DNA of 22,039 nucleotides from a virus, in IMG/VR virus record IMGVR_UViG_3300032050_009335, positions 1 through 22,039 of that record. One strand, given 5' to 3'. This document shows, piece by piece, positions 5,545-20,950 of the stretch (its first letter is position 1; each line of letters starts with the position of its first letter). The notes beneath the pieces are model-generated. The model searched no databases. It was not told the origin of the DNA and saw only the letters and a program-made list of their open reading frames with translations. The position numbers were made by a program, and so were the translations under genes.

Positions 5545-6503
5545 GAACAGCATTGGTAACTGGTGGTGCAGGTTATCTCGGAAGTCATTTGGCAAAAGCA
5601 CTGAAAAAAGCAGGCTACACTACAGTCTGCTTTGATATAAAATCGCCACGCAATATGGTCTATTGGAACGATGCGTTTATCGGCGATGTTCGTCAATCTA
5701 CCTTGGAAAAGCCGTTCAATCAATATCAGATTGATGTGGTGTTTCATCTGGCAGGCCGCATTGAAGTTGGTGAATCGGTTTTATATCCCGAAGAGTTTTG
5801 GGACATCAATGTGGGTGGCACATGCAACCTACTTAACATAATGAGAAAATTTGATGTTAGTAATATTGTTTATTCTTCTACTGCCGGCGTTTATCGTTCT
5901 CAGTTTACCAGCCTCTCTGAGAAATCGGAAATAGATAACAACAATCCGTATGCCAACAGCAAGTATGCTGCTGAGTGTGCGATTCGTGATGCAAAAGTGA
6001 ATTCTATTATTTTTCGTTTCTTTAATTTGGCTGGTGCTGATCCTGACTGTGAGATGGGTGAAGACCATCATCCAGAAACACATTTGATTCCGCTAATGTT
6101 CAAAAGTCTAAATAACGAAAAGTTCATCGTATATGGAAATGATTATCAAACGGTAGATGGCACATGCATTCGTGACTACGTTCATGTGTGTGATGTTGCT
6201 GAAGCACATTTGTTGGCTGATGAATATTTACAGAAAAAAGGAAACAATCAACCTAGCCTATTCAATCTAGGCACTGGTAAAGGCTATACTGTACTACAAG
6301 TGATTGATGCTGCTAAACAGGAACTAGGCGTTCCAATTCAATACACAATCGGTAAACGAAGAGAAGGTGACCCACGAAGGTTAGTCGCCAACTCTGATGC
6401 CGCCAAACATCATCTTAATTTCAAACCCAAGCATGATTTAAAATCCATTTTGAGAACGGCGTATAATTGGTATGAGCGACAAAGAGAACGAAATACAATT
6501 TGA
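5541..6503 (+). CDS. galE: UDP-glucose 4-epimerase-like NAD-dependent sugar epimerase
   Basis: An extended short-chain dehydrogenase/reductase. The NAD-binding motif GGAGYLG is at residues 8-14. The catalytic set is S/T114 (YSSTAGVY) with Y137 and K141 (NPYANSK). C-terminal signatures include GTCIRDYVHVCDVAEAH, FNLGTGKGYTVLQV and REGDPRRLVANS, all typical of GalE. Length 320 is close to bacterial GalE (about 338). It should interconvert UDP-glucose and UDP-galactose or the N-acetyl forms, feeding the glycosyltransferase encoded upstream. The start is coupled by ATGA to the RmlC gene. Its 3' end overlaps the ClpP-like gene by 32 bases. The precise sugar is uncertain, since SDR epimerases are hard to separate by sequence alone. 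Confidence 0.9.
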   Translation: MRTALVTGGAGYLGSHLAKALKKAGYTTVCFDIKSPRNMVYWNDAFIGDVRQSTLEKPFNQYQIDVVFHLAGRIEVGESVLYPEEFWDINVGGTCNLLNIMRKFDVSNIVYSSTAGVYRSQFTSLSEKSEIDNNNPYANSKYAAECAIRDAKVNSIIFRFFNLAGADPDCEMGEDHHPETHLIPLMFKSLNNEKFIVYGNDYQTVDGTCIRDYVHVCDVAEAHLLADEYLQKKGNNQPSLFNLGTGKGYTVLQVIDAAKQELGVPIQYTIGKRREGDPRRLVANSDAAKHHLNFKPKHDLKSILRTAYNWYERQRERNTI

Positions 6504-7005
6504 ACACTATACTCATTTTTTGTCTGGTAGCATTGAGCCAGCAGTTATTGAGTCGGCATCACGCTGGTTGCTATATGCCAAGTTCAACAAGATTGAAAAG
6601 CCACTGACCTTGAACATCAACTCTGAGGGCGGCAATCTGGGTGATGCAATAGGCCTTGCCGACTTAATGTTGGGTGTGGGCATGCCCGTTCGCACACTAG
6701 CGTATGGTAATCTAATGAGTGCTGCATTTGTAATATTTGCTGCTGGTGAAAAAGGTTATCGTGCTGTAGGCAAAAACACGACAATCATGATTCACCAATT
6801 CAACGATGAAATGGGTGGCAAGTATCATGATATGCGGGCTTATGCCAAAGAGTGTGATAGGTATCATCACAAAATGGCAAAGATTCTTTCCGACTGTTCT
6901 AAACTGTCGGTCAAAGATGTAAAATCCAAGTTTCTACGACCAACTGATGTTTGGCTGACCGCAGAAGACCTGGTAGAATATGGTATAGCAGATATTATCT
7001 TTTAG
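6472..7005 (+). CDS. clpP: ClpP-like serine protease
   Basis: A ClpP/crotonase-fold peptidase of 177 residues, near the size of mature ClpP (193). The catalytic triad aligns with the family: S83 in AYGNLMSAAF, H108 in TIMIHQF, and D159 in RPTDVWLTAEDLVEYG. The oxyanion glycine pair is in NSEGGNLGDA (53-54). ClpP forms double heptamers fed by a Clp ATPase. No ATPase is encoded here, so it would use the host ClpX or ClpA, or act alone. Because it sits after sugar genes and not in a head cluster, a prohead maturation role is less likely than altered host proteolysis. The co-encoded tmRNA makes proteins ending in LAA, a known ClpXP signal, which is a suggestive but unproven link. Confidence 0.88.
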   Translation: MSDKENEIQFEHYTHFLSGSIEPAVIESASRWLLYAKFNKIEKPLTLNINSEGGNLGDAIGLADLMLGVGMPVRTLAYGNLMSAAFVIFAAGEKGYRAVGKNTTIMIHQFNDEMGGKYHDMRAYAKECDRYHHKMAKILSDCSKLSVKDVKSKFLRPTDVWLTAEDLVEYGIADIIF

Positions 7006-7951: not shown

Positions 7952-10429
7952 ATGCCTATTTTAGCATCTTTAAGTTCGAGTATTTTAGCATCATTTAAAC
8001 TTATTGGAAGAGAGGTCTCTACAGGTTCTACAGTAAGTAGAATATTCACCACAACAGGAATATGGACTGTACCCTCAGGTGTCACTCGGGTGGATTATGT
8101 TGTTGTCGCCGGTGGAGGTGGAGGTGGCCGTGGAGGTGGAGGTGGCGGTGCTGGTGGTTATCTTACCGGCGCCAGTTTCGGTGTAACACCTCTAGAGACA
8201 TATACCATCATAGTTGGTTCGGGTGGTGCAGGTGGAACATCCGATGCAACTGCTGCATCAAATGGAACGAATTCAGGATTTTATACATCGTCAACTTCAC
8301 TATGGTCTATTGGCGGTGGTGGCGGTGGTGGAAGAACACCATCCTCACCTACTCAAAACGGAGATGGTGCTTCTGGTGGTTCAGGGGGTGGTGCTGGTGT
8401 GGGGTTTACACGGAATGCCGGTTTAGGCACACCTGGCCAAGGGAATAATGGTGGTATAAATTGGGGTAGTAGTGGAAATTATGGTGCCGGTGGTGGTGGC
8501 GGTGCAGGTGCAGTTGGTGCAAATGGAACATCTAGTGTTGGTGGCAATGGTGGCGTAGGAATATTTTCAACATTTTCGGGATCAAACACAGGATATGCTG
8601 GTGGAGGTGGTGGGGGTGCTTTCCCAAGCACAGGTCCATCAGGTTTCGGTGGAACGGGTGGTGGTGGCAATGGAGGAACTCCAGCATCATTAACATCTGG
8701 AAGCACCAATAGAGGTGGTGGTGGAGGTGGAGGAAACGATACAATTAATGGTGCGGCCGGTGGTTCAGGTGTTGTCATTTTTCGTTATACTGAACCGCTC
8801 ACTGTCAACGGAATTTTTGTTTTTGCAAACACAGGACAAATTGTTCTTCCTAATGATGTTACAACGATTGATTATCTCGTTGTTGCTGGTGGTGGCGGTG
8901 GCGGTAGTGGCGGAGGTGGAGCCGGAGGACTTAGAAGTGGTACGGGATATCCAGTAAGTTTAAGAACACAATTTACTGTGGTGGTTGGCGGTGGTGGTGC
9001 TTTTTCAACAGCAGGTTCGAATAGTGGATTCTTTTTAACTCCATCGGGTGGAAGCGCCATTTGGACAACTGGTGGTGGTCGTGCCGCAACCGGAGGAAAC
9101 GGTGATGGTGCGGGTGGCTCAGGCGGTTCAGGTGGAGGTGCTTCGGGAGATGGTTGGCCAGGAAACTCTAGAGTAGGTGGCTCCGGTAATGCAGGAGGTT
9201 ACAATCCACCCGAAGGTTATGGTGGTGGAAATGGCACATTCTTTGGAGCGTTTAATGGAGGTGGTGCTGGTGGTGGCGGTGGTGCCGGTGCGGCAGGTGG
9301 TAGTGGATATGGACCGGGTGCCGACTTTGGTGGAAATGGCGGCGTAGGAATATTCTCCACAATTTCAGGATCAAACACAGGATACGCTGGTGGTGGTGCC
9401 GGTTACACAAGAGCCGGACCAGCAGCACTCGGCGGCGCCGGTGGCGGTGGCAATAGCAACCAACCTTCACCTGCACTTCCTGCTGCTAATGGAGTATCTC
9501 AAACTGGTGGTGGTGGCGGTGGTGGTAGCGGTGGAACAACTGGCGGTGGCGGCATTGTAATTATTAGAGCGAATCGTCCACAAAATAATTTTGTAATCTT
9601 TAATTCTACTGGAACATTTGCTCCACCTACAGGAGTCACTAATATAGAATATCTTGTGATTGCTGGTGGTGGCGGCGGAGGCGGAGGCACACCTGGCGGC
9701 AGAAGCGGTGGCGGAGGTGGCGCTGGTGGTGTACTATCGGGTTCCGGACTTTCTGTAAACTCTGAGATCACATATACAATTACAGTTGGTGGTGGAGGAG
9801 GAGTTTCAACTAACGGAACAAATTCATCAATTGTTGGACCAACACCATTTTCAAATGTAACTTCAATAGGTGGTGGCACCGGCGGCGGTAATGTGCAGGC
9901 GGGTGGACAAAATGGTGGTTCAGGTGGTGGAGGTAGGGCGGGTCCTTCTGGTACCGGTGGTGGCGCCGGGGTTTATCCTGGATCACCGTGGAATAGTGGA
10001 ACACGACAAGGCTTCAATGGTGGGGATGGACTTGGCACTAGTGAGCCTTATAATGCTGGTGGTGGCGGTGGTGCCGGTGGTGTGGGCGGTGGTGCTTTTG
10101 ATGCCAACGGAGGTATCGGTATTTTCTCTTCAATCACTGGTGCTAATGTTGCATATGCTGGTGGCGGTGGTGGTGGCAGAAACGCTAACCCTTCACCAAA
10201 TCCTCAAATGGGTCGGGGTGGTGGTGGCTACGCTTCTTATTCAAGCGGTTCACCTTGGTTAGGAACTCCTTTTGGTGGTGCAAATGGTGCCGTTGCTGGA
10301 GTAATAAGTCAGGCAGCTTCAGCAGCTATCAATAATACTGGCGGCGGTGGTGGAGGTTATGCTCAACAAGGTGGACAAGCCGCCAGTGCCGGTGGTTCAG
10401 GTGTTGTTATTGTCAAATGGAGTACATAA
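7952..10429 (+). CDS. Three-module polyglycine tail adhesin (825 aa)
   Basis: A receptor-binding tail protein made of three tandem copies of a glycine-rich domain, at about residues 30-277, 287-541 and 545-825. Each opens with a beta strand (GVTRVDYVVVAGG, DVTTIDYLVVAGG, GVTNIEYLVIAGG), runs through long GGGG/GGSGG tracts, contains a near-identical core (GGVGIFSTFSGSNTGYAGG, GGVGIFSTISGSNTGYAGG, GGIGIFSSITGANVAYAGG) and closes with a strand such as SGVVIFRY, GIVIIR or SGVVIVKW. Such tracts form packed polyglycine-II helices in the Salmonella phage S16 adhesin gp38, with loops between helices binding the receptor. The modules probably arose by duplication, and similarity persists at DNA level (around 8550 and 9340). 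Many spurious Pro-rich and Trp/Cys-rich frames in this region are shadows of the GGN codons. Confidence 0.88.
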   Translation: MPILASLSSSILASFKLIGREVSTGSTVSRIFTTTGIWTVPSGVTRVDYVVVAGGGGGGRGGGGGGAGGYLTGASFGVTPLETYTIIVGSGGAGGTSDATAASNGTNSGFYTSSTSLWSIGGGGGGGRTPSSPTQNGDGASGGSGGGAGVGFTRNAGLGTPGQGNNGGINWGSSGNYGAGGGGGAGAVGANGTSSVGGNGGVGIFSTFSGSNTGYAGGGGGGAFPSTGPSGFGGTGGGGNGGTPASLTSGSTNRGGGGGGGNDTINGAAGGSGVVIFRYTEPLTVNGIFVFANTGQIVLPNDVTTIDYLVVAGGGGGGSGGGGAGGLRSGTGYPVSLRTQFTVVVGGGGAFSTAGSNSGFFLTPSGGSAIWTTGGGRAATGGNGDGAGGSGGSGGGASGDGWPGNSRVGGSGNAGGYNPPEGYGGGNGTFFGAFNGGGAGGGGGAGAAGGSGYGPGADFGGNGGVGIFSTISGSNTGYAGGGAGYTRAGPAALGGAGGGGNSNQPSPALPAANGVSQTGGGGGGGSGGTTGGGGIVIIRANRPQNNFVIFNSTGTFAPPTGVTNIEYLVIAGGGGGGGGTPGGRSGGGGGAGGVLSGSGLSVNSEITYTITVGGGGGVSTNGTNSSIVGPTPFSNVTSIGGGTGGGNVQAGGQNGGSGGGGRAGPSGTGGGAGVYPGSPWNSGTRQGFNGGDGLGTSEPYNAGGGGGAGGVGGGAFDANGGIGIFSSITGANVAYAGGGGGGRNANPSPNPQMGRGGGGYASYSSGSPWLGTPFGGANGAVAGVISQAASAAINNTGGGGGGYAQQGGQAASAGGSGVVIVKWST

Positions 10430-14128: not shown

Positions 14129-14659
14129 ATGCTATCATTTAAACAACATACTCAATTAGATGAAGGTAACACGCTGGCAAGACTGGCTAAACACGCTGAA
14201 GAGGGTAGGCACTATGCTGTTATTTCCTCACAGCGACCACATGATGAAGTATCGCCAGAACAAAATAAGAAGCATCATGAAGAACTTAAAAAGAAACTGA
14301 CTGCACAAGGCTACACTCACAAAGAAGTTGAAGGTCATTGGGAAGGTGGTAAAGAAAAGTCTATATTGGTACATGCAAAAGGAAAAGGAGATGAACACGG
14401 CAAACAACTCCTCCATGATATTAAAAAACATGGAGAACATTATAATCAAGACTCAATCTTACATCACGATGGAAAAACAGCGACCCTACACGGAACAAAC
14501 AAAACAGGATTCCCAGGTCACGGCAAGACAGAGAATGTAGGCAAGATGGCTTTCAATAAGCCACATGCACCGTTTCAAACAGAAACAAAACCAAAATCTG
14601 ACAAGCCGCTGAAACCAGGAAGAACGAGCAAAGGTTCAGCAAGATTCACAACGGTGTGA
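14129..14659 (+). CDS. DUF3293-like protein with a possible capsid-targeting leader (176 aa)
   Basis: A strong ribosome site (GGGGG) precedes the ATG. The short head MLSFKQHTQLDE resembles the leader peptides that carry T4 internal head proteins into the prohead, where gp21 cuts after L/I-x-E. LDE at residues 10-12 fits that rule. The main domain (residues 28-120: HYAVISSQRPHDEVSPEQNK, a shared helix, WEGGKEKSILV, DSILHHDGKTATLHG) resembles DUF3293 as I recall it. The tail is Lys/Pro/His-rich and probably disordered. If both readings are right, it would be packaged and injected with the DNA. Neither is proven. A TTGACA-TATCAT match (14110-14138) overlaps the start but would make a transcript that begins inside the gene. 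Confidence 0.72.
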   Translation: MLSFKQHTQLDEGNTLARLAKHAEEGRHYAVISSQRPHDEVSPEQNKKHHEELKKKLTAQGYTHKEVEGHWEGGKEKSILVHAKGKGDEHGKQLLHDIKKHGEHYNQDSILHHDGKTATLHGTNKTGFPGHGKTENVGKMAFNKPHAPFQTETKPKSDKPLKPGRTSKGSARFTTV

Positions 14660-14839: not shown

Positions 14840-16012
14840 ATGAAAAAAATAGCGATAGTTGGTAGAGGCACGGTTGGTTGCTTATCAGTAGCACATTATC
14901 TTAGATATACCAATTGGAATATAGATTGGATTTATGATCCTCTTATTGAAACTACTCCGGTAGGAGAAGGAACGAATTTAATATTTCCGAAATCTCTCAG
15001 AGAAACGTTAGGATTTAGTAGCGTTGACATGGATAATGTGAACTCTACTCCAAAACTGGGTATTTGGAAAAGAAACTGGGGTCAAGGCGAAGATTTTAAA
15101 CACACATTTCTTGCTGGTGACCATGGACTACATTTCAATGCAGTTCAGTTACAAGATTATATCTTTGAAAAAATGAGGAATGATCCAAGAGTTAATTTGA
15201 TAGAATCAAATATACCAACTCCTGATTCTGTTGATAGTGATTATGTTATGATGTGTACTGGATCACCTAAAGATTTGATGGAAGATTATACTGTTCATGA
15301 TCACATACCAGTAAATGCCGCTATGGTATTTCAGTGTCCTTGGGATATGCCGAAATTTTTTTATTCATTAACATTCGCCAAAAAATTTGGTTGGGTTTTT
15401 GGAATACCATTAAAAAATAGATGCGCCATAGGTTATGTTTATAATGATCAATATTGTACTGAAGAGGATATCATAACGGAAGTTCAGGACATACTTGATG
15501 AATTTAATTTGGTGCCAACGGCGACTAGAAAACTAAAATTTAGAAATTATTCCAGAAAACAAAATTTTGATGTTAGAGTTTGTTACAATGGTAACGCTTC
15601 TTATTTTCTTGAACCACTTGAGGCTACATCTACGGGATTTTCAGATTATATTAATAGACTTTCTTTTGATTATTGGTATACGAAAGAATTTAATCAAAAT
15701 GCAGTAAATGAATTCTATAAAAGAGAAATAACCGAAACTGAAGCAATGATATGCTTGCATTATTTTTCAGGCTCAGTATATAATAACGAGTTTTGGAAAT
15801 ATGCTCAAAAATTAGGTGAAAATATTATAAAAGAAAATTTTAAAAATAAAACTAAATTTTCTGAAATTATAAAAGTAGCTTTGGATGAAAAAACTTTAAA
15901 AAAACCACATACAGTTTCATTTGAAAGAAGCATAGGGTCTTGGCCAGTTCTAAGTTATGTGCAAAATATTAAAAATCTTGGAATAGAAGAACGTTTGAAA
16001 GAATTGTTGTAA
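14840..16012 (+). CDS. Flavin-dependent (tryptophan) halogenase-like protein
   Basis: The PF04820 layout is seen in order: FAD-binding GRGTVG (8-13), PVGEGTN (40-46, the G-x-G-E-x-T block), K72 in TPKLGIW where the catalytic lysine of PrnA/RebH lies, GWVFGIPL (184-191, a variant of the WxWxIP motif), and FLEPLEATSTGF with E261 at the site of the second catalytic glutamate. Active enzymes chlorinate or brominate tryptophan using FADH2 from a partner reductase. At 390 residues this one is much shorter than RebH or PrnA (about 530), so the substrate cap may be reduced. Similar genes are annotated in T4-like cyanophages. The gene is visibly more AT-rich than its neighbours and favours AGA for arginine and ATA, which suggests separate transfer. 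The stop is immediately before the tmRNA gene. Confidence 0.82.
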   Translation: MKKIAIVGRGTVGCLSVAHYLRYTNWNIDWIYDPLIETTPVGEGTNLIFPKSLRETLGFSSVDMDNVNSTPKLGIWKRNWGQGEDFKHTFLAGDHGLHFNAVQLQDYIFEKMRNDPRVNLIESNIPTPDSVDSDYVMMCTGSPKDLMEDYTVHDHIPVNAAMVFQCPWDMPKFFYSLTFAKKFGWVFGIPLKNRCAIGYVYNDQYCTEEDIITEVQDILDEFNLVPTATRKLKFRNYSRKQNFDVRVCYNGNASYFLEPLEATSTGFSDYINRLSFDYWYTKEFNQNAVNEFYKREITETEAMICLHYFSGSVYNNEFWKYAQKLGENIIKENFKNKTKFSEIIKVALDEKTLKKPHTVSFERSIGSWPVLSYVQNIKNLGIEERLKELL

Positions 16013-16067
16013 TCCCTTCAAAGTGAAGGCATTCTGGACGTGGGTTCGACTCCCACCTAGTCCACCA
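16013..16067 (+). ncRNA. ssrA: tmRNA acceptor piece
   Basis: Begins with a 5-bp hairpin (CCTTC-AAAGT-GAAGG, about 16015-16029), then the 3' strand of P2 (16030-16036), the T-arm GTGGG-TTCGACT-CCCAC (16040-16056), the acceptor 3' strand with U70 (16057-16063), discriminator A (16064) and CCA (16065-16067). The true 5' end after processing cannot be read. A tRNA search alone would probably miss it because there is no anticodon arm. Confidence 0.85.
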
Positions 16068-16154
16068 GAAGTGTTGTTTAGGGTGATATGTAAGAGTTTA
16101 ACAAGACTCTGAGGATTGGAATTCCCGACCTGTGAACAGCAGGACACTTCTGAT
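16068..16154 (+). other. Intervening segment of the permuted tmRNA precursor
   Basis: These 87 bases join the two tmRNA pieces and should be removed by processing. The ends pair: AGAAGTGT (16067-16074) with ACACTTCT (16145-16152), so the precursor forms one long hairpin that stacks on the acceptor stem, leaving CCA and the 5' end as an internal loop for RNase P and the 3' processing enzymes. There is no reading frame of note. Confidence 0.75.
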
Positions 16155-16330
16155 GGGCTAGACATGGTTTCGACAGGGTGAGATAGTGGAGAAGGCAACA
16201 CGATAGGCGATGATCGTTAATCAAGCAAATCTATAAATGCAAATGACGCATTTTACGGAGAAGAACGCCTAGCGGCTTAACTCTCATGGGGTTTTAGTGG
16301 AGTGTACCTTATTACCAAAACACTCTACAC
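16155..16330 (+). ncRNA. ssrA: tmRNA coding piece with tag ANDAFYGEERLAA
   Basis: The 5' end GGGCTAGACATGGTTTCGACAG has the invariant TTCGAC of tmRNA 5' halves. The resume codon is GCA at 16239, and the frame reads ANDAFYGEERLAA then TAA (16278-16280). It keeps the AND start and the LAA end recognised by ClpX and SspB-like adaptors. A 9-bp helix (16297-16305 with 16320-16328, one G-U) closes the 3' end. The middle of the tag is unlike the tags I know from E. coli (ANDENYALAA) or Caulobacter (ANDNFAEEFAVAA). Confidence 0.85.
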
Positions 16331-16345
16331 CAAATTCAATACATT

Positions 16346-17029
16346 ATGAAAATCTACAAATCAAATTATCGTAATCATTGGCTTTCTCCTTATGTTATAC
16401 TGGAGAAGATTTTCTTTTGGCGTGAGATTGAATATGATGAACCAATCATCAAAAAACTTTCCGACTTTCTGACCCCATTTAGCGTATCATGGCAAAAGTT
16501 TCTTGACTTTGTACATCCAAAAATAAACTATGTGAAGATTGACCGTTATGATACATGGTCAATGGATCATACATTGGCAGATATCATTCTACCGATGTTG
16601 AAACAACTGCGTGATACCAAACACGGTTCACCAATGGTTGATGTTGAAGATGTGCCAGAAGAACTGCGTATTGTTGGACATCAAGATGCTTCACCACAAC
16701 TTGAATTGGTGTTTGATGATCAAGGACAATACGAAAAAGATTCGTGGGAAATTACCCATCGTCGTTGGGAATGGGTATTGAATGAAATGATTTTTGCCTT
16801 TGAACATTTCGTTGATGATTCATGGGAAGAAGCATATCGTTCTGGTGAGATTGATACACATTCTGTTCCATGCGAATGGGATGAAAATGGTAAGCCAACA
16901 CTCTACACATTTGAAGATGGTCCCAATCACACATATGAATGTGACTACGATGGCATGAGAAAAGTTTACGACCGTATGGACAATGGTTTTCGTTTGTTTG
17001 GTAAATACTACCGTGGTCTCTGGGATTAA
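16346..17029 (+). CDS. Conserved phage protein, MKIYKSNYRNHW type (227 aa)
   Basis: Soluble, acidic and rich in Trp, Tyr and Asp. Landmarks are MKIYKSNYRNHWLSPYVILE, the block KIDRYDTWSMDHTLADIILP (about residues 64-83), DVEDVPEELR, a helix WEWVLNEMIFAFEHF, and a C-terminal NGFRLFGKYYRGLWD. I associate this set with a family spread over many unrelated phages as a hypothetical of near-constant length. No catalytic motif is evident, though the DxWSMDHTLAD block is a candidate site. It follows the tmRNA by about 15 bases and has no Shine-Dalgarno sequence, which is odd for a gene so conserved. Translation may depend on processing of the tmRNA transcript. Confidence 0.82.
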   Translation: MKIYKSNYRNHWLSPYVILEKIFFWREIEYDEPIIKKLSDFLTPFSVSWQKFLDFVHPKINYVKIDRYDTWSMDHTLADIILPMLKQLRDTKHGSPMVDVEDVPEELRIVGHQDASPQLELVFDDQGQYEKDSWEITHRRWEWVLNEMIFAFEHFVDDSWEEAYRSGEIDTHSVPCEWDENGKPTLYTFEDGPNHTYECDYDGMRKVYDRMDNGFRLFGKYYRGLWD

Positions 17030-18232: not shown

Positions 18233-18709
18233 ATGAGTTATAATAGTGATGAACACAATTTCACATTTCGCTTCCATTCTGCTGAAGGTGAACGAGATTT
18301 AGAAATGAACTGCAACGCCTTGTATGTTGATGATGTACTTTCATTTATGAGAGACTTTTTGCAAGGTTGTGGTTACCAAATTGAAGGTACGATTGAAGTT
18401 GTGCCATACGAAACTTATGAAGAGTTTGAAAATGATCCCCCATTGAATTATAATGAGTATGATGGGTACGCACCAAAGCAAGATAAGTTTTCTATGGACC
18501 ACTTGCCTAACAATGGATGGCCATTTGGTGCTTTGAAAACTGAATCTATTTCTGCATTGACTACTGCTGATATAGCCGCTATTAAGCCGATTGATTTCTC
18601 TCAGATTAATCAGTATCCTACGATGGCGCCATTAACAACTGAACAGGCTTATTCTTGGTCGGCTGAATTGCCAAGCAGCACAGGCAGTAAAATTAAAGTT
18701 CAATTCTGA
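18233..18709 (+). CDS. Acidic phage protein, unknown function (158 aa)
   Basis: Has a clear ribosome site (GGAG, 8 bases before ATG). The N-terminal domain (HNFTFRFHSAEGERDLEMN, then YVDDVLSFMRDFLQGCGYQI) is a compact alpha/beta fold. The middle is acidic and aromatic (ETYEEFENDPPLNYNEYDGY), and the last 60 residues are Ser/Thr/Ala-rich and probably flexible. It is unrecognised, and no catalytic motif is seen. It ends by overlapping the ATG of the gp33-like gene (TGATG), so it is part of the 33-59-32 operon and may be early. Confidence 0.75.
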   Translation: MSYNSDEHNFTFRFHSAEGERDLEMNCNALYVDDVLSFMRDFLQGCGYQIEGTIEVVPYETYEEFENDPPLNYNEYDGYAPKQDKFSMDHLPNNGWPFGALKTESISALTTADIAAIKPIDFSQINQYPTMAPLTTEQAYSWSAELPSSTGSKIKVQF

Positions 18710-18933
18710 TGCCAACAAAAGATGAAATGCTGAAGTTCTCTTTGCAGATAGAACGGTTGGTAGCCAATACAGATTACACATATCTTGAGGCTATCACTGA
18801 ACACTGCAAAGGAACTGGTTTGGAAATTGAGGTTGCTGCTTCACTCATTACACCAAATCTGAAAGCAAAAATACATGAACAAGCAGAACGTTTAAATATG
18901 TTGAAGGTGAAAGGCAATCGTTTACCGATATGA
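18709..18933 (+). CDS. 33: gp33-like late transcription coactivator
   Basis: T4 gp33 bridges host RNA polymerase and the sliding clamp so that gp55-bound polymerase fires late promoters. This 74-residue protein aligns with the T4 core: IERLVANTDYTYLEAITEHC against IEKMVEEFGMSYLEATTAFL, then SLITPNLKAKIHEQAERLNML against FIPSGIIEKIQSEAIDENLL. It lacks the N-terminal extension of T4 gp33 (112 aa) and ends NRLPI, not the T4 clamp-binding LDFLL, so clamp contact may differ. Its neighbours support the call: gene 59 follows with an ATGA overlap and gene 32 is two genes on, as in T4. A late promoter is present at 7354. Confidence 0.8.
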   Translation: MPTKDEMLKFSLQIERLVANTDYTYLEAITEHCKGTGLEIEVAASLITPNLKAKIHEQAERLNMLKVKGNRLPI

Positions 18934-20083: not shown

Positions 20084-20950
20084 ATGTCAGATTTTTCTTC
20101 TCTTAAACGCAACCGCAATTCGTTTGATAAACTCACCAAAGCGGTTGAATCAATCAATACCCCCACAGAAGGCTCCAAAGGTTCTAAAGGTGATGAACGT
20201 TTTTGGCAGCCAGAAGTAGATAAAGCAGGTAATGGTATGGCAGTCATTCGTTTTCTGCCAGGACCATCAGCCGATGGTGATGAAGCATTACCATGGGTTC
20301 GTTTGTTTGACCATGGCTTTCAAGGTCCAGGTGGCTGGTACATTGAAAACTCTTTGACCACTTTGAATCAGAAAGATCCAGTTTCAGAATACAACTCTGT
20401 TCTGTGGAATTCTGGTATTGAAGCAAACAAAGAAATTGCACGTAAACAGAAACGCCGTTTGTTTTATATTGCAAACATTTATGTTGTTTCTGATCCTAAA
20501 AATCCAGAAAACGAAGGTCAAGTCAGACTGTACAAGTTTGGTAAGAAAATCTTTGATAAGATTACAGAGGCAATGAATCCTCAGTTTGAGGATGAGAAGC
20601 CAATTAATCCGTTTGATTTCTGGGAAGGCGCAAACTTCAAACTGAAGATTCGTCAAGTTGAAGGCTATCGCAACTACGATAAGTCTGAATTTGAAAGTTC
20701 GTCACCTTTGCTTGATGGTGATGATGCTAAACTTGAAACATTGTGGAAAAAAGAATATTCACTGAAAGAGTTTCTTGATCCTAAAAACTTCAAGTCATAT
20801 GATGAACTGAAGTCTAAACTGGACAAAGTTTTGGGTCTAAGTGGTACTGCACCAGTATCAAAGACTAAGGCTGAAGACTTTACACCACGTTCTTCACCCG
20901 ATATTGAAGATGAAGAACTTGATTACTTTAAGTCTCTAGCAGAAGATTAA
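20084..20950 (+). CDS. 32: gp32 single-stranded DNA-binding protein, lacking zinc cysteines
   Basis: Coats single-stranded DNA and organises replication, recombination and repair. The N-terminus has the basic cooperativity segment (SLKRNRNSF, residues 6-14; T4 has KRKST). The OB-fold core keeps WVRLFDHGF, GGWYIENS, KRRLFYIANIYVVSDPKNP, KFGKKIFDKI and FWEGANFKLKIRQVEG. The tail is acidic (PDIEDEELDYFKSLAED), as needed for binding partners such as gp59. Unlike T4 gp32 (H64, C77, C87, C90) this protein contains no cysteine. H77 is kept, but the cysteines align with S90, a gap or Asp near 98, and S101. Cyanophage gp32 proteins as I recall them share this loss. Has its own promoter and a strong terminator. 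Confidence 0.95.
   Translation: MSDFSSLKRNRNSFDKLTKAVESINTPTEGSKGSKGDERFWQPEVDKAGNGMAVIRFLPGPSADGDEALPWVRLFDHGFQGPGGWYIENSLTTLNQKDPVSEYNSVLWNSGIEANKEIARKQKRRLFYIANIYVVSDPKNPENEGQVRLYKFGKKIFDKITEAMNPQFEDEKPINPFDFWEGANFKLKIRQVEGYRNYDKSEFESSSPLLDGDDAKLETLWKKEYSLKEFLDPKNFKSYDELKSKLDKVLGLSGTAPVSKTKAEDFTPRSSPDIEDEELDYFKSLAED

Follow-up and report, generated by a model that had tools for sequence, protein, structure and literature searches.

The window, by which we mean the whole stretch of 22,039 nucleotides of viral DNA analysed here, contains a complete circularly permuted tmRNA gene at positions 16005-16335 of the plus strand. Two Rfam models recognise it above their cut-offs, tmRNA_permuted (RF04321; 143.6 bits, E 9.9e-29, at 16005-16280, cut-off 47) and beta_tmRNA (RF01850; 139.2 bits, E 6.5e-43, at 15964-16338, cut-off 84); an earlier sequence-only reading of this DNA had proposed covariance models as a check, and its assignment passes on both. 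ARAGORN calls a single tmRNA gene in the window, in permuted form, at 15975-16371 of the plus strand including flanks, with the tag ANDAFYGEERLAA. The acceptor half lies upstream and the coding half downstream, an order that can be read from the window sequence, and the parts are the following:

16005-16067, plus strand: acceptor half of the permuted tmRNA, with strands of the P2-side helices, T-arm, acceptor 3' strand, discriminator and CCA (sequence, ARAGORN, Rfam, conserved pairing)
16030-16036, plus strand: P2 partner strand CAUUCUG (window sequence)
16040-16056, plus strand: T-arm (window sequence)
16057-16063, plus strand: acceptor 3' strand CTAGTCC (window sequence)
16064-16067, plus strand: discriminator and CCA, the encoded CCA being 16065-16067 (window sequence)
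16068-16154, plus strand: intervening spacer, whose paired ends lengthen the acceptor stem (pairing, folding, comparison)
16155-16238, plus strand: coding half, 5' part (sequence, Rfam, viral gene comparison)
16155-16161, plus strand: acceptor 5' strand GGGCTAG (window sequence)
16169-16174, plus strand: TTCGAC (window sequence)
16174-16180, plus strand: P2 5' strand CAGGGUG (window sequence)
16239-16277, plus strand: tag frame ANDAFYGEERLAA with resume codon GCA, followed by the stop codon TAA at 16278-16280 (ARAGORN)
16281-16335, plus strand: coding half, 3' part, including a hairpin of 9 bp between 16297-16305 and 16320-16328, the 3' limit being nominal (Rfam, folding)

The two halves meet in an acceptor stem of 7 bp (GGGCUAG with CUAGUCC), including the pair G3-U70, which we take to be the alanine determinant, and in a P2 helix of 7 bp (CAUUCUG with CAGGGUG), two pairs of which are U-G. 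The sequence-only reading had described both helices, together with the order of the halves and the parts within them, and in this it is borne out by the window sequence, ARAGORN and Rfam. It had also placed the gene at 16013-16330, which is the right locus but too short at its upstream end: because UGUUG at 16005-16009 pairs with CAACA at 16196-16200, the acceptor half must start at or before 16005, and it therefore overlaps the last codons of a halogenase-like reading frame (14840-16012). The 110-nt stretch formed by acceptor stem and spacer folds with a z of -4.18, none of 200 shuffles being equally stable, while the entire 336 nt gives a weaker signal (z -1.97; 2 of 100 shuffles equally stable). 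Promoter-like sites at the tmRNA locus are not above chance in a promoter scan, and a terminator scan found no terminator-like site there.

The neighbouring genes that bear upon the argument are these:

6472-7005, plus strand: ClpP-like protease (family match; aligned Ser, His and Asp positions kept)
14840-16012, plus strand: tryptophan-halogenase-like reading frame, directly upstream, its end overlapping the RNA (family match)
18709-18933, plus strand: gp33-like late-promoter regulator, a conserved downstream neighbour (family match, relatives)
20084-20950, plus strand: gp32 single-strand DNA-binding protein, a T4-like marker (family match)

Besides gp32, the gp33-like regulator and the ClpP-like protease, in which the aligned Ser, His and Asp presumably have catalytic roles, the gene families of the window include RNase H, gp59, sugar-nucleotide genes and an endolysin family. 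The T4-like assignment of the sequence-only reading holds, given the families of RNase H, gp32, the gp33-like regulator and gp59 in the window and the T4 capsid family Gp23 in L053, a 133-kb record that, like the 51-kb record L041, is identical to the window across the 17 segments compared. Moreover, ssrA lies near gp33, gp59 and gp32, in the same gene region as in T4-like phages; the locus is the permuted ssrA of a T4-like phage. Among the best 20 of 2,416 records matching gp32, HTVC008M, Mosig and cyanophages rank highest, with identities of about 57-64%. The window has no close relative among isolate phages, the matches among 50,697 phage records covering at most 23% of the query, and four plasmid records match it in part. 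The host may be a betaproteobacterium, judging from the lineage model that the gene fits (beta_tmRNA). Naming it through the nearest bacterial tmRNA was rejected as too weak, with matches in 11 of 399 genomes of one order; the nearest bacterial DNA in these 399 genomes is chromosomal and has 79-81% identity over about 87-113 nt. As to other features of the region, close relatives differ in the halogenase-like gene, which some have and several others lack, so that its site looks like an insertion hot spot, and the window also holds an 825-residue reading frame with long glycine runs (7952-10429).

Two-piece tmRNAs in T4-like phages are already in print, and what appears to be new here is the tag family and its exchange. 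The sequence-only reading had known of no well-described permuted ssrA in such a phage, a view that is superseded by the two-piece tmRNA reported for Melnitz, a T4-like OM43 phage (Methylophilales), in a source that also classes 53 of 133 phage tmRNA structures as two-piece (PMC9004378), and by the annotated ssrA of Mosig; phage tmRNAs as such have long been known (PMC4131195; PMC7162821). Both phages thus share with the window a permuted ssrA in a T4-like genome. However, the tmRNA of Melnitz is reported to be of alphaproteobacterial type and to come with a glutamine riboswitch (PMC9004378), whereas the gene of the window passes beta_tmRNA and the Rfam search reported no riboswitch family in the window. 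The Mosig gene lies between a nuclease gene and a gp33-like gene, upstream of gp59 and gp32, hence in the same region as in the window although the intervening genes differ, and its tag is GEDNFALAA (ARAGORN) instead of a member of the 13-residue family. With the betaproteobacterial two-piece tmRNA (RF01850) the window shares gene order, tRNA domain, P2 and G3-U70, but it stands apart by its 13-residue tag and by its spacer, which is 88 nt long, whereas 45 distinct genes from bacteria have spacers of 24-43 nt (the A of CCA being counted in both cases). The tmRNA-like RNA of mycobacteriophage DS6A is likewise a phage-encoded tRNA-like domain of tmRNA, yet without a tag frame, while the frame in the window appears to be under selection.

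The tag of the window belongs to the family ANDA(FY/YF)G(E/D)(E/D)RLAA, which a tag pattern search found in 73 viral contigs, many of them near-identical (eight loci are one phage); together with the window and its copy L001 these make 75 tag rows with 33 distinct codings. The same exact degenerate pattern has no match in a collection of bacterial and archaeal genomes from 84,980 species, represented by one genome per species and contigs of at least 3 kb. As a control, a tmRNA pattern of the 5' half without the tag finds 55 stretches in this collection; ARAGORN reads 53 genes in 52 of them, with 48 tags of the 10-residue type and 5 odd readings. The 5'-half pattern also finds 67 viral contigs, in 62 of which ARAGORN reads a permuted tmRNA: 22 have a 13-residue tag of one family, 37 a 10-residue tag (for example ANDERYALAA or ANDNYYAMAA) and three a 31-residue frame. 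Across the 115 viral genes called by ARAGORN, the tag starts with AND in 109 and ends with LAA, MAA or IAA in all; those of the 13-residue family number 53 including L001, or 42 distinct genes. ARAGORN missed 21 of the 73 tag contigs, but all 16 of these that were given to Rfam pass tmRNA_permuted (89.9-114.5 bits), 2 of them passing also beta_tmRNA and 11 alpha_tmRNA; by these model matches the 13-residue tag is borne by beta-like as well as alpha-like tmRNA bodies. It occurs also in the 207-kb record L181, which gives no match to Gp23 but carries families of ribonucleotide reductase and PstS-like proteins. A set of loci selected by gp32 includes none with the exact 13-residue family among its 22 ARAGORN genes (L128 has ANDDAFYGEVRLAA); this set contains no contig of the 5'-half search, though several of those match gp32 better, and consequently it is no random sample and is unfit for estimating the prevalence of the 13-residue tag. 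In the literature searched, which did not extend to the tmRNA database (79 phage sequences), the 13-residue tag strings appear in no paper, and we found no account of tags being switched or being confined to phages, nor any study testing degron function for Arg before LAA or for this linker.

Both the RNA and the peptide bear the marks of selection. From the 115 viral ARAGORN genes 94 could be cut into parts, 21 being dropped (3 truncated, 18 failing the parsing expression), and these reduce to 59 distinct genes, all with G3-U70, which comprise 8 types of T-stem and 8 types of acceptor, every one fully paired. The T-stem is paired in 100% of cells (shuffled maximum 83.4%), positions 4-7 of the acceptor in 100% (75.8%) and the spacer helix in 97.2% (86.9%), the last being computed over 55 of the 59 genes; when the 3' strands are re-dealt, none of 2000 shuffles reaches the observed pairing for any of these helices, under a control that leaves sequence relatedness in. 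The comparison indicates that pairing is maintained by compensating changes, that is, by structural selection. For the peptide, contigs were picked by the 5' half alone, regardless of tag: the 13-residue family shows a pS of 0.462 and a pN of 0.047, hence a pN/pS of 0.10 (21 genes, 14 distinct codings) that leaves out the mis-cut row L039 (0.27 with it), while the 10-residue class has a pN/pS of 0.29 (37 genes, 18 distinct codings). The tag peptide is thus preserved while its codons drift. The position of the gene is conserved too, with a permuted tmRNA in 21 of the 26 gp32-selected loci that span the site, 16 found by ARAGORN and 5 more by Rfam. The latter (L081, L089, L090, L101 and L121) come from 10 gp32-selected loci that ARAGORN had left blank, so that phage tmRNA counts based upon ARAGORN are too low.

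L010 has 92-98% DNA identity with the window in the exonuclease gene, the genes at 14129 and 17966, the endolysin, gp33, gp59 and nucleotidase genes; within the tmRNA, identity falls from 94% for the acceptor half through 88% for the 5' half to 60% for the tag, and the spacer is almost unmatched. The same record has 85% identity in gp32, 72% in gene 16346 and 64% in gene 18233, and it lacks the halogenase; indeed, genes 16346-17029 and 18233-18709 are also highly variable among close relatives, and the tag is not the sole variable part. L023 and L068 show a spacer 98-99% identical to that of the window next to a tag of just 55-62%, and near-identical copies of the spacer of the window occur in phages bearing other tags. 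On five trees of flanking proteins (61-93 rows, near-copies included, no shuffle control) at least 12 to 17 changes are required to explain the two tag classes. These classes require 16 on the tree of the tmRNA body (145 columns, 52 of 113 inner branches unresolved), at least 6 of them forced by strongly supported branches, and a single clade of the 13-residue rows is rejected there (p-AU 0.003), even if the clustering of the tag label exceeds that in each of 500 shuffles. On this tree, with the same open branches, the five rows nearest to the window are all viral and the label of phage or bacterium changes 4 times. In these comparisons 13-residue tags alternate with 10-residue tags among closely related phages, and tag and spacer look like exchangeable cassettes; recombination inside the tmRNA gene is probably the simplest reading, although assembly errors could account for single cases of exchange. 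The suggestion of a phage-chosen tag, made from the sequence alone, gains support from this alternation, from 73 viral contigs against no genome match and from the low pN/pS.

The reading that we favour, with a probability of roughly 0.7, is that the locus encodes a working permuted ssrA which depends on the host for processing, alanine charging and SmpB, and which serves both to rescue ribosomes and to attach a ClpXP degron shaped by the phage. The transcript would fold so that acceptor stem, T-arm and P2 meet across the self-paired spacer, which tRNA-processing enzymes of the host may then cut out, leaving a two-piece tmRNA held together by base pairs, as is reported for known permuted tmRNA transcripts (PMC11915505). 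The host enzyme would load alanine onto the acceptor with G3-U70, which would then work with host SmpB; a search of 19 records, fragments among them, found neither SmpB nor SspB in any, and host factors are assumed for this reason, a phage-encoded SmpB or SspB being set aside as partner with 0 of 19 records each. Phage pf16 is reported to carry SspB (PMC5587285). Ribosomes stalled on broken mRNAs during infection would thereby be rescued, the phage tag A-ANDAFYGEERLAA being added to their products; the likely use is ribosome recycling combined with rapid clearance of these products through a degron that is phage-shaped and no copy of the host's. Once the Ala contributed by the charged RNA is included, the tag becomes AANDAFYGEERLAA and, by comparison with AANDENYALAA of E. 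coli, keeps A1, A2, N3, D4 and Y7 (Phe at position 7 in the YF variants) as well as the LAA end, having four residues where E. coli has one, hence three more between the parts of the degron. In E. coli, AANDENY is reported to bind SspB and ALAA to bind ClpX (PMC8512704), and by analogy the tag would retain both parts of a ClpXP degron: AAND..Y at its start, to bind the adaptor, and LAA at its end, to bind ClpX. Adaptor and ClpX elements around a longer linker are likewise found in engineered, extended ssrA degrons, among them the lengthened AANDENYSENYALAA, described as efficient and well degraded (PMC8512704); these were tested in E. coli, while the phage linker GE(E/D)R belongs to a putative degron known from sequence. 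As for the protease, one may speculate that the ClpP-like protein of the window is tied to tagging; as a general partner of phage tmRNA it was rejected, being present in only 13 of 19 records searched and not found in 6.

The likeliest rival to a phage-shaped degron is that the gene works but the 13-residue tag is the hosts' own, copied from bacteria of a lineage that the genome collection does not include. The genome search had the narrow scope given above, and the 10-residue tags of phages do resemble bacterial ANDERFALAA, ANDESYALAA and ANDENFAMAA; yet the absence of any match in 84,980 species, the 10-residue type of 48 of the bacterial tags in 53 genes (5 being odd readings) and the presence of the 13-residue tag on beta-like and alpha-like bodies, in alternation with 10-residue tags among close relatives, make this unlikely. 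A working tag might instead protect or relocate proteins rather than deliver them to ClpXP, for example if binding to the host protease is weakened by the Arg that precedes LAA and by the longer linker. RLAA is indeed the end of 57 of the 115 viral tags and ALAA of 44 (near-copies counted), while Arg before the last three residues is not seen in the 10-residue tags of the 53 bacterial genes; against this, the terminal Ala-Ala, which is reported to count most for ClpXP in E. coli (PMC7652416), is kept in 115 of 115, and so is the AAND start, which belongs to the adaptor site, retained, so that we regard protection as rather improbable.

Two further explanations would deny the tag its function. 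The phage RNA could be a decoy soaking up SmpB or the alanyl-tRNA enzyme of the host, thus blocking its trans-translation as proposed for DS6A, and a molecule with the tRNA domain only is reported to inhibit tmRNA (PMC4131195; PMC11915505); but a decoy needs no tag, and here frame and stop are intact and the peptide is kept despite codon drift, which renders the idea decidedly improbable. That the gene is a non-functional relic of integration, or of accidental capture from a host, is scarcely credible, even if tmRNA genes are reported to serve often as integration sites (PMC11915505): the gene is complete, its pairing is kept through compensating changes and its position is conserved in 21 of 26 loci. 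No integrase was found in 19 of 19 records searched, which speaks against an attachment-site relic in particular, and taken together with the complete gene and the compensating changes has led us to discard it.

The usual view of phage tmRNAs is that they are genes captured from hosts. If the tag is indeed conserved in diverse phages, missing from bacterial genomes and swapped among close relatives, then trans-translation serves the phages themselves and selection acts on the degron. The working ssrA with a phage-shaped degron can be extended, tentatively and at somewhat less than even odds, to the wider view that phages own a degradation tag unlike all sampled bacterial tags, occurring both in T4-like phages and in one or more large phage records that lack a recognisable T4 capsid gene, that tag and spacer move as cassettes, and that phages switch between this tag and host-like ones, so that the virus would set the fate of stalled proteins. 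The 13-residue tag offers a direct test of the purpose of phage tmRNA, namely which protease and adaptor handle a tagged protein, and if the reading is true a natural degron with an extended linker joins the engineered ones.

Some related genes show other departures from the common form. A tag frame of 31 residues ending in ANESRFALAA is found, always on the minus strand, in L012 (8032-8468), L035 (2112-2547) and L059 (836-1272). The tmRNA of L157 (4326-4794, minus strand) has a spacer of 160 nt, inside which lies a frame of 47 residues (MKPTEIKDQETL...) that has an AAGGA-like start signal; this frame ends just before the acceptor 5' strand and is perhaps a small protein gene within the tmRNA gene. 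Among bacteria, Cupriavidus pinatubonensis HN-2 has five permuted tmRNA copies over the model cut-off in one genome (L200, L228, L237, L245, L257, L260, L265-L267), one with the tag ANDERFALAA and four with ANDEKFALAA, and the pattern matches on both chromosomes and on plasmid p2 suggest a mobile tmRNA.
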